Below the pieces are notes generated by a model. That model saw nothing but the letters and a program-made list of their open reading frames with translations, was not told the DNA's origin and ran no database searches. A stretch of DNA of 64,000 bases from Chitinophagaceae bacterium (GTDB lineage: Bacteria; Bacteroidota; Bacteroidia; Chitinophagales; Chitinophagaceae): assembly GCA_014879565.1 (NCBI GenBank), contig JACSRW010000043.1, positions 1 to 64,000 of the forward strand, read 5' to 3'. The position numbers and the translations under genes are program-made. Below are positions 9,229 through 27,902 of this stretch, piece after piece. Numbering within the stretch: position 1 is the stretch's first letter; each line of letters begins with the position of its first letter.

Positions 9229-9727
9229 ATAGTAGTTTCCTCGCTCTTGAGCGGAAAGCCGGACTTTCCAGATCCCAGCGTTCTTCGATAATGGTTTTGA
9301 GTTCCTGGCGGATTTCCGGGTAATCGTCGGCCAGTTTATTCAATATAGTCAGCGAAAAGGCCTTGACGGCAGGTTTTTCGCGGATATCAGTGATAAAATT
9401 AAAACAGCTGTTCATGAGCCGGCCACGAAGCCTTTCAGGAATGGATATATGCTCCAGTGCCCGGACCGTGTTGCGTTTAAACGCGTCCTGGAGCCCTGGC
9501 TGTTCCAGTTTTTTGATGACGGCGGCGAGGTGTTTAGTGAGCAAAGGGGGATGAGCCTGTACGGCATAACTGAATGGCCAGGCGGCCCGCTGTACCAGTT
9601 TTTTATCTTCACCGAGAAAGATTTTCATGAGCGTGTCGAAACGTTGCTGACTCTTTCCGATCCAGCTGACCACGCGCAGGCATTGAGCTTTGGAATGTTC
9701 TTCCAGCAGGAATTCGCTCAGGTTCAT
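9227..9727 (-). CDS. HEAT-repeat-like hypothetical protein
   Basis: A 166-residue, helix-rich protein without signal peptide. The spacing of hydrophobic and charged residues, with segments such as VQRAAWPFSYAV, RNTVRALEHISIPE and VKAFSLTILNKLADDYPEI, suggests four to five HEAT-like helical repeats, as in adaptor proteins or DNA-alkylation-repeat proteins; no catalytic motif is visible. ATG 9727 is preferred; an in-frame extension to 9787 is possible but not conserved-looking. Its end runs into the word repeat at 9178-9228. Function unknown. Confidence 0.6.
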   Translation of the reverse strand: MNLSEFLLEEHSKAQCLRVVSWIGKSQQRFDTLMKIFLGEDKKLVQRAAWPFSYAVQAHPPLLTKHLAAVIKKLEQPGLQDAFKRNTVRALEHISIPERLRGRLMNSCFNFITDIREKPAVKAFSLTILNKLADDYPEIRQELKTIIEERWDLESPAFRSRARKLL

Positions 9728-9860
9728 AGAACCGAAGCTATTATAAGTCAGGGAGACTTCCAATACCCATAATATCTTTACTTTCAAAGCAGTATATTTT
9801 TGTAAATTTAGAAAATATTTCTCATAATTTATATTATGTTAAGTAATGAAATGAAAGTCG

Positions 9861-9868
9861 TACCTTTG
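9861..9868 (+). promoter_or_regulatory. -7 box of a candidate small RNA
   Basis: TACCTTTG fits TAnnTTTG. A TATG lies about 22 bases upstream in place of TTTG. No coding start follows; hairpins and a terminator do. Confidence 0.5.
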
Positions 9869-9872
9869 CACT

Positions 9873-9969
9873 GTCATAACTAACCAGCCTCGGGGTTGGT
9901 CCGGGGACTGTAATCCTGCAGTCCCCTGCTCTTTACAGGCATAAAAAAAGACCGCCGGAGCGGTCTTTT
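9873..9969 (+). ncRNA. Candidate structured small RNA, about 97 nt
   Basis: Seen directly: a -7 box at 9861-9868; hairpin 1 from ACCAGCC (9883-9889) and GGTTGGT (9894-9900) with a TCGG loop; hairpin 2 from GGGGACTG (9903-9910) and CAGTCCCC (9919-9926) with an eight-base loop; then a terminator hairpin with T4 ending at 9969. I recognise no reading frame in between. It does not match tRNA, tmRNA, SRP RNA, RNase P or a riboswitch I can name. It could be a trans-acting regulatory RNA; the 5' end is inferred from promoter geometry. It faces the convergent TPR gene and shares its terminator. Confidence 0.5.
9943..9969. terminator. Bidirectional terminator
   Basis: A7, GACCGC, loop CGGA, GCGGTC, T4. 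On the minus strand the T-run is seven long and ends the TPR/gyrA transcript; on the plus strand it would end the candidate small RNA. Confidence 0.85.
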
Positions 9970-9986
9970 CAAAATCTATTCCGTGA

Positions 9987-11330
9987 TTAGTTTTTGATGG
10001 AGTCATACACCTCATTCCACTTCTTTTCTTCAGCAGCCCATTTGGCCTGATCCGCGGGTTTGCCTTTTGCCATTACTCTTTTGAAGGAATAAATATCGGC
10101 CAGGTAACTGGCGGCTTTTTTATACTGTTGCTTATCGCGCATTTCCAGTTTTTCGCGTGCGGCAAAAATAGCGGCCGCTTTTTCATAAGGTTCTTTGGCG
10201 CCTTCCAGGGTTTCCAGGTATTCGCGGTCGAGTGCTTCCCTTTTGGCTACATCTTCCTTGGACGCCATGGTTCCGGGTTTGGTGCGGGCCTTCATGTCTT
10301 TGGCATGCGCATCGCGTTTGTCATTCACTTTGGAAGCCTTGTTGATAAAATGGTCGCCGATATACAAATAAGGAATTTCGTATCCGGGTTTGCCTTTGGC
10401 AGATTTCAAAAAGGCCTCAATCATTTTCTTTTCCAGTTCAGGGGCATTGGCCGGGGGTACGACTCCCTCATCGGCATGTTTGGGATTCAGGGTATCATAA
10501 ATAATCTCTCCCAGCACCTGGTTGGCTTTCTGATTTTCGGGGTCTGTGGCGAGCACTTCATTCAGGGCCGCCAGTTTCTCATCAAATTTGTCGGTAAGAC
10601 CTACCGCAAAATCAATTTTATCGTAATCAAAATACTGGCTTTCCGGGAAAAGTTCTTTTCCGTAGGCTTTGTACTTTTCAAAATTGGCCATGTCTTTATG
10701 GGCAAATGACTGGCTTACCATAAAACGGTAAATCCCTTCAAACCCTTCTCCGCCCACTTTGGCATCAGCCAGGCGTTTGTAGAAAACCATCGCGTCTTCG
10801 TTGTTCCCGGTTTTTTCTGCAGTAATACCGGCCAGGATCAGTACGTTCGTGTCAAGGCTTACGGTAAGCAGTTTCCGGCTGATGAGCAGGTCGGAATATT
10901 CCACCGCTTTTTTCAGTTTCACCAGGCCGGTCTCCCATTTGCTCTTGCTGTAATCCTGGTAGCCTGTAGTATAATAATTGGAATAAAGATTGATGGGGCC
11001 GTTCTGGTAAGACGGATCACTCATCAGCGTCATGGCGGGATCCATGGATTTGAATTTGGCAAAGGCGGAATCTGCAGCGGCAATCAGCTGTTCGGCTTCC
11101 GGGGTGTTCTTTTTCCCTTCCGACATAGCGTAGCCGGCATAAATAGCCGTTTTGAGGATAAAAGCTTCTGGCTTAGCGGCATATTTGGCATTGTTCATAC
11201 CCTTGTCCACTTCTGCTTTAGCCTTATCATACTGGTTCAGCATCAGGAGGGTCTTGGCATTGTCGTAGTTCTGCGCGGCAGCGGTCATTGTAACCAGACC
11301 GGCTGTCAAAAGAAGGAAGAACCTTTTCAT
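9987..11330 (-). CDS. Exported TPR-like protein downstream of gyrA
   Basis: A 447-residue protein with a cleavable signal peptide (hydrophobic run ending in TAAAQ near residue 20), so periplasmic or surface-exposed. The body is alpha-helical with TPR-like spacing, e.g. LLMLNQYDKAKAEVDKGM near the N-terminus and KKAVEYSDLLISRKLL further on; the C-terminal third is Lys-rich and lacks clear repeats. No catalytic motif is visible. It starts 25 bases after gyrA and ends at a strong terminator, so it is probably co-transcribed with gyrA. Proteins of this kind are common in the phylum and poorly characterised; a role in envelope assembly would be a guess. Confidence 0.7.
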   Translation of the reverse strand: MKRFFLLLTAGLVTMTAAAQNYDNAKTLLMLNQYDKAKAEVDKGMNNAKYAAKPEAFILKTAIYAGYAMSEGKKNTPEAEQLIAAADSAFAKFKSMDPAMTLMSDPSYQNGPINLYSNYYTTGYQDYSKSKWETGLVKLKKAVEYSDLLISRKLLTVSLDTNVLILAGITAEKTGNNEDAMVFYKRLADAKVGGEGFEGIYRFMVSQSFAHKDMANFEKYKAYGKELFPESQYFDYDKIDFAVGLTDKFDEKLAALNEVLATDPENQKANQVLGEIIYDTLNPKHADEGVVPPANAPELEKKMIEAFLKSAKGKPGYEIPYLYIGDHFINKASKVNDKRDAHAKDMKARTKPGTMASKEDVAKREALDREYLETLEGAKEPYEKAAAIFAAREKLEMRDKQQYKKAASYLADIYSFKRVMAKGKPADQAKWAAEEKKWNEVYDSIKN

Positions 11331-27065: not shown

Positions 27066-27902
27066 ATGTTTACATTGAATTGTAAGGGACGGATTTTACT
27101 GGTGGACAAACCACTGGTGATGGGAATTCTGAATATTACTCCTGATTCCTTTTACAGCGGCAGCCGGGCGGAAACACTGGCTGATGTGGTTCGGAAAGCA
27201 GAACAGATGCTTACCGATGGCGCGGCCCTGCTGGACCTGGGCGGACAAAGCACACGCCCGGGCAGTGAGCGGGTATCAGCGGATGAAGAAGCAACCCGGG
27301 TGGTTCCGGCTGTTGAAGCAGTCAGAAGCCGTTTTCCTGACTGTTTTATTTCGGTGGATACATTTTATGCCTCTGTGGCAGCCGCTGCAGTAGCTGCCGG
27401 CGCTGATATCGTGAATGATATCAGCGCCGGCAGCCTGGATCCGGAACTCCTGCCTGCAGTTGCCCGCCTGGGTGTACCTTATGTGCTGATGCATATGAAA
27501 GGCAGTCCGCAGGATATGCAGGAAAAAGCCGGGTATAACGACGTCACCCTGGAGGTGTACGATTACCTGGCGGAAAAGAAAAAACAACTGCAGGATGCTG
27601 GCATTCGGGATATCATACTGGATCCGGGCTTTGGATTCGCCAAAAACAGCGGTCATAATTTTAAATTGCTGAAACAACTGCGTTTACTGTCTGCGTTGGA
27701 TGCGCCTCTCTTACTGGGAATTTCCCGCAAATCGTTTATCTGGAAAACACTCCGCACGGAGGCCGGTTCGGAAGCCACCCTGCAGGGTACAACTGCTTTA
27801 CACATGGCCGGTTTGCTGAACGGCGCCTCCATTTTACGGGTGCATGATGTGGCGCCGGCAGTACAAACAATCAGGCTGTACCGCGAATTGCAAATGGCAT
27901 AA
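27066..27902 (+). CDS. folP: Dihydropteroate synthase
   Basis: Joins para-aminobenzoate to the pterin diphosphate in folate synthesis; target of sulfonamides. 278 residues. GILNITPDSFY (about 20-30), LLDLGGQSTRPGS (about 56-68), FISVDTF, VNDISAG, LDPGFGFAKN and GISRKSF are the ordered pterin- and pABA-site motifs, all intact. The stop codon runs directly into a strong terminator, so nothing is co-transcribed downstream; the diadenylate cyclase gene often found next to folP in this phylum is absent here. Confidence 0.97.
   Translation: MFTLNCKGRILLVDKPLVMGILNITPDSFYSGSRAETLADVVRKAEQMLTDGAALLDLGGQSTRPGSERVSADEEATRVVPAVEAVRSRFPDCFISVDTFYASVAAAAVAAGADIVNDISAGSLDPELLPAVARLGVPYVLMHMKGSPQDMQEKAGYNDVTLEVYDYLAEKKKQLQDAGIRDIILDPGFGFAKNSGHNFKLLKQLRLLSALDAPLLLGISRKSFIWKTLRTEAGSEATLQGTTALHMAGLLNGASILRVHDVAPAVQTIRLYRELQMA

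Follow-up and report, generated by a model that had tools for sequence, protein, structure and literature searches.

A candidate lineage-specific small RNA beside the dif site of a Chitinophagaceae bacterium

Bacteria separate joined chromosomes at the dif site, which is also a known hotspot for Xer-dependent elements. In Bacteroides thetaiotaomicron, intergenic small RNAs (sRNAs), GibS among them, have their own TAnnTTTG promoter and a terminator stem and lack a long open reading frame (ORF); the sections of PMC7366714 drawn on here report a canonical promoter in 76% of the intergenic candidates and classify 27 of 49 high-confidence members as strain-specific; such members are common there. 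Extra DNA directly at dif is also described: microviruses of Bacteroidetes reportedly use dif-like sites for integration, giving proviruses (PMC3091885, in excerpt).

The locus analysed here has features of each of these. It lies in a 64,000-nucleotide stretch of a Chitinophagaceae contig (JACSRW010000043.1, positions 1 to 64,000), called the window below. Like the B. thetaiotaomicron sRNAs of the PMC7366714 sections, it is intergenic, with a TAnnTTTG promoter of its own, a candidate terminator stem and no long ORF; it differs in base composition (G+C of 0.55 for 9858-9940 against 35% in that set), in being known from sequence alone, in having no sequence relative in the collections searched and in lying beside dif. 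It adjoins a 28-bp site with both Xer arms, near a turning point of GC skew, in common with the dif/XerCD site of PMC3025954; the consulted portions of that paper mention no RNA unit at dif. As in the microvirus proviruses of the PMC3091885 excerpt, extra DNA stands directly at dif, but here it amounts to only about 100 nt, with no genes and no second dif-like site found. A literature search on dif with small RNA, judged by title, returned nothing on the subject.

What is this unit? On slightly better than even confidence, it is read as a candidate for an orphan, young, lineage-specific intergenic sRNA beside dif, and it is probably one that has so far been seen only in this species. The candidate is of an ordinary kind in an unusual place. 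As an orphan sRNA it is one of many, and its location is the useful result.

Promoter, hairpins and 3' end of the putative RNA

The -7 box TACCTTTG can be read directly at 9861-9868 on the plus strand, where the initial annotation had placed a promoter. In the Flavobacterium map, TAnnTTTG boxes occupy -12 to -5 (PMC9723704, excerpt), and this spacing puts the predicted +1 at 9873, the start that the annotation had also given. The promoter is of the Bacteroidetes type and is absent from the list of a sigma-70 scan. Its company gives the box the look of a genuine sigma-A promoter: each of the six other TACCTTTG boxes in the window lies 9-138 nt before the ATG of a same-strand ORF of at least 100 aa, a distance given with no random control. 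For the six other TAnnTTTGCA sites, equally with no random control, the distance to the ATG is 17-138 nt in five and 362 nt in one. This longer motif is moderately enriched in the window (7 against 3.12 expected, with as many in 2 of 100 shuffles); the bare TAnnTTTG is not (42 against 44.75). In the whole genome GTACCTTTGCA has three other copies, each at the 5' end of a long ORF; one of these copies lies 22 nt into its ORF as called mechanically. The box followed by TCATAA has no second copy in the genome. A -33 TTTG is missing from 9834-9845; the box places the -33 region at about 9837-9842, a distance occupied by the XerD arm of dif (9834-9844). According to the same sections of PMC7366714, F. 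johnsoniae likewise yielded no -33 TTTG, which is therefore not treated as defining for a Bacteroidetes sRNA.

Two hairpins follow on the plus strand. The first, ACCAGCC-TCGG-GGTTGGT (9883-9889/9894-9900), has seven pairs, one of them G-U, around a TCGG loop, and direct reading of the letters bears out its earlier description. The second (9903-9912/9917-9926, loop ATCC) had been described as an 8-bp stem; those pairs are present, and two further ones extend the stem to ten, one being G-U. With the terminator included (9872-9969), the minimum free energy is -43.9 kcal/mol, whereas shuffled sequences average -27.1; z is -5.43, and none of 200 shuffles does as well. The hairpins without the terminator (9872-9932) give z -4.14, with none of 500 shuffles as good. 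Only 8 of 6394 plus-strand windows of 61 nt, taken at steps of 10, fold at least as well, and two of the eight overlap this site. A stronger 61-nt fold at 27381 was dropped, as it lies in a coding stretch by reading alone. Over 9872-9932 the plus strand folds to -28.1 kcal/mol and the minus strand to -22.7, a difference expected for a plus-strand RNA with two G-U pairs.

The unit had been said to contain no recognisable reading frame and to match no named RNA family. The first statement holds for ORFs of at least 60 aa, none of which overlaps the unit in the ORF list of the window. The second agrees with Rfam, where no family reaches its gathering score anywhere in the window; at E<=10 nothing over the unit comes near threshold, the best plus-strand match being AaHKsRNA41 with 16.9 bits against 97.

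Where would the RNA end? The stem 9946-9955/9960-9969 is perfect and is common to the unit and the convergent gyrA-linked gene; it is followed by seven T on the minus strand and by TTTT on the plus strand. The proposal that one terminator serves both transcripts is thus sound for the minus-strand gene and weaker for the plus-strand RNA, whose 3' end is uncertain because only four U follow. A consensus terminator scan lists 9946-9969 on neither strand. It does list hairpin 2 with the tail TGCTCTTTAC as terminator-like on the plus strand, which may put the 3' end earlier, near 9935. A 97-nt noncoding transcript at 9873-9969 on the plus strand, predicted from the box and the terminator stem, is plausible, and transcription is judged likely. 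RNA polymerase would start near 9873, and the structured product would be about 97 nt long if it runs to the common stem, or shorter if it stops near 9935 after hairpin 2. If such an RNA is functional, it could pair in trans with other RNAs through its exposed parts: the single-stranded 5' end GUCAUAACUA (9873-9882), the loops of both hairpins and the linker 9927-9945.

The dif site and the gyrA-linked gene

The unit is flanked by dif on one side and by the terminator of the gyrA-linked gene on the other. The dif site was overlooked in the initial annotation; it surfaced on reading orthologous regions downstream of that gene, as a block common to most of them. It occupies 9817-9844 on the plus strand, with the XerC arm at 9817-9827, the centre at 9828-9833 and the XerD arm at 9834-9844, and it shares 22 of its 28 letters with the E. 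coli dif given in the consulted part of PMC3025954. With at most one mismatch allowed, 116 of 147 genomes contain the dif core pattern, and the genome of the window contains it once; the control, the pattern read backwards, gives 12 matches in 10 genomes and none in the genome of the window. Cumulative GC skew of the contig has its maximum at 9585, near dif, on a contig with only 9.8 kb to the left of the site and negative skew in its first 2 kb. In a relative assembled as a single contig and treated as a circle, 8 of the 10 samples before dif have positive skew and the other two slightly negative skew; all 10 after it are negative. The genome has a XerD gene that scores over its model cut-off; for a second recombinase XerC is the best model, but its 293 bits fall short of the cut-off of 335. 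The dif site itself is ordinary.

On the other side, the unit faces the 3' end of a 447-aa gene (9987-11330, minus strand) downstream of gyrA. The label TPR given to this gene earlier is weak: at E<=0.001 the protein matches neither a Pfam nor an NCBIfam family, the best being TPR_19 at E 0.038. The gene mostly ends beside dif. Among 42 genus genomes, 40 have it at E<=1e-100, with 78% identity over the full length in the nearest relative and 84% over a C-terminal fragment in another; searches with the protein yielded 13 loci in genome contigs, with no new species, and none in viral contigs.

In 31 of the 40 genomes, counting G009 by a gene fragment and G004 by a C-terminal fragment, a dif core with at most one mismatch lies on the same contig within 174 nt of the end of the gene, and in G001 and G037 dif stands beside the gene with two mismatches. 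The site and the gene end are close neighbours in 33 of the 40. Other DNA separates them by about 0.8 and 1.5 kb in G028 and G039, and the contig ends at this position in G008, G010 and G026. There are two clear exceptions, G019 and G041, since there dif is on another contig and reading 1.5 kb past the gene reveals none. The pairing is a landmark of the terminus, and it reveals which dif-adjacent spacers have grown. From the dif core to the end of the gene match, the gap has a median of 53 nt among the 31 genomes and is 147 nt in the window; it reaches 127 nt or more in only five, the window included, the others being G027 (127), G004 (151), G020 (168) and G018 (174).

Search for counterparts in relatives

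Is the unit conserved? The initial annotation proposed a covariance search among Chitinophagaceae relatives; this produced no homologue in the collections searched, and hence no compensatory changes to count. A lack of such changes had been named as evidence against the RNA, and the lack holds only in the sense that these collections offer no relative to compare. Promoter class, fold and absence of an ORF of at least 60 aa make the proposed compact noncoding transcription unit plausible, and its conservation is unsupported. Absence of homologues weighs against an RNA conserved over a long time but is no objection to a young one.

Orthologous intergenic regions of the genus mostly contain dif and a terminator; none of those examined has a two-hairpin counterpart. 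The two nearest relatives, G027 and G004, also have long spacers, and these show no hairpins and no significant alignment to the window. Pairwise alignments among the spacers of the window, G027, G004 and G018 are all without significance, the smallest p, 0.052, being that of the window with G027; for the alignments with the window, p is 0.052-0.93 over two scoring schemes. Folded without the terminator, the plus-strand spacers give z of +0.5 (G027), +1.5 (G004), -2.3 (G018) and +1.4 (G020) against -3.3 for the window; the minus strand of the G027 spacer has z -2.3.

A DNA search of 147 relatives found some match at E<=1 in 118 genomes. Among the matches listed, most fall on 9930-9975 or towards dif; the hairpin region itself has a few, all short (about 17-42 nt), and none spans both hairpins. 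A covariance model of 83 positions, built from the window sequence alone as two identical rows, recovered only its own copy as a strong match in the 147 genomes under stricter filters, and the window alone in 44 sources. Three other matches in the 147 genomes, with 20-21 bits and E 0.2-0.46, were taken as chance. The 91-nt unit has no counterpart in a DNA search of 394 family genomes. The one other match (E 0.0018) is 25 nt long and takes in the box with its flanking letters; it was not counted as a homologue, being made up of box-like letters, and its locus is an upstream region by reading of the letters. In viral contigs, exact patterns for each hairpin and for the XerD arm plus box have no match, and blastn against phages and plasmids has none.

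Competing explanations and other DNA at dif

The sRNA reading gains from a fold that beats all shuffles with and without the terminator and is stronger on the plus strand, from the position of the other box and GTACCTTTGCA copies before or at the 5' ends of long ORFs, from the 25-nt match in an apparent upstream region and from the strain-specific sRNAs and canonical promoters of B. thetaiotaomicron. Counted against it are the absence of a homologue in the collections searched, of a -33 TTTG and of more than four U on the plus strand, the chance frequency of bare TAnnTTTG and the one TAnnTTTGCA site with an ATG distance of 362 nt. That it stands next to dif is probably incidental, this being an intergenic position that tolerates extra DNA.

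A serious rival, to which we give a real though clearly minor chance, is that the stretch from dif to the terminator is the remnant of an insertion at dif, its promoter and hairpins being leftovers or chance and any RNA functionless. The microvirus reports in the PMC3091885 excerpt are in keeping with this, as are the short median dif-to-gene gap of the genus and the rarity of long ones, the four compared long spacers that align without significance and the larger DNA stretches that adjoin dif elsewhere, as in G028 and G039. Against this rival, apart from dif and its own reverse complement no dif-like site above 17 of 27 is present in 9501-10300, nor do the viral contigs, phages and plasmids searched contain a match. 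Two clean hairpins and a well-formed promoter in one direction are also much to ascribe to chance.

Could the unit serve dif itself? As a device of the terminus it would act in cis, keeping read-through of the gyrA operon off dif or linking RNA polymerase to XerD, the latter proposed because the -33 region of the promoter overlaps the XerD arm. The unit and its terminator do separate dif from the operon, but the idea is improbable: relatives manage without the unit, the XerD arm has no -33 consensus, and among 69 dif loci a TAnnTTTG occurs within 70 nt downstream on that strand in only two, the window and G028, where it is taken to lie in an insert. Eight of the 69 have a TAnnTTTG on the other side, pointing away. 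A narrower form, in which the overlap of promoter and XerD arm makes XerD binding and transcription at the terminus exclude each other or signal to each other, is more improbable still; if the overlap were functional, transcription would be linked to dimer resolution. That the unit encodes a short peptide or leader instead of a noncoding RNA is very improbable: the 10-codon frame (ATG to TAA, 9851-9883, plus strand) begins upstream of the predicted +1, the 20-codon frame on the minus strand (9880-9942) has no TAnnTTTG closely before it, as that strand has none between 9868 and 10163, and no plus-strand ORF of at least 60 aa starts between the unit and 10128.

Apart from the sRNA candidate, other DNA at dif in the family deserves mention. 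At five loci (L158:3730, L159:4160, L162:4043, L163:6068 and L164:3530) the dif-adjacent DNA begins loosely alike, approximately AYAGGCGCAC, with ACGCTTCT later in some. They may belong to one family of small elements that have inserted at dif. Of eight ORFs tested near these five and two other dif sites, seven have no Pfam match and all eight have no PHROGs match. At two further loci a pair of inverted dif-like sites is spaced about 100-130 nt apart (L160:437 and 536; L161:7188 and 7320). The excerpt of PMC3091885 likens the inverted dif-like pairs of some Bacteroidetes microvirus proviruses to CTX-like phages.
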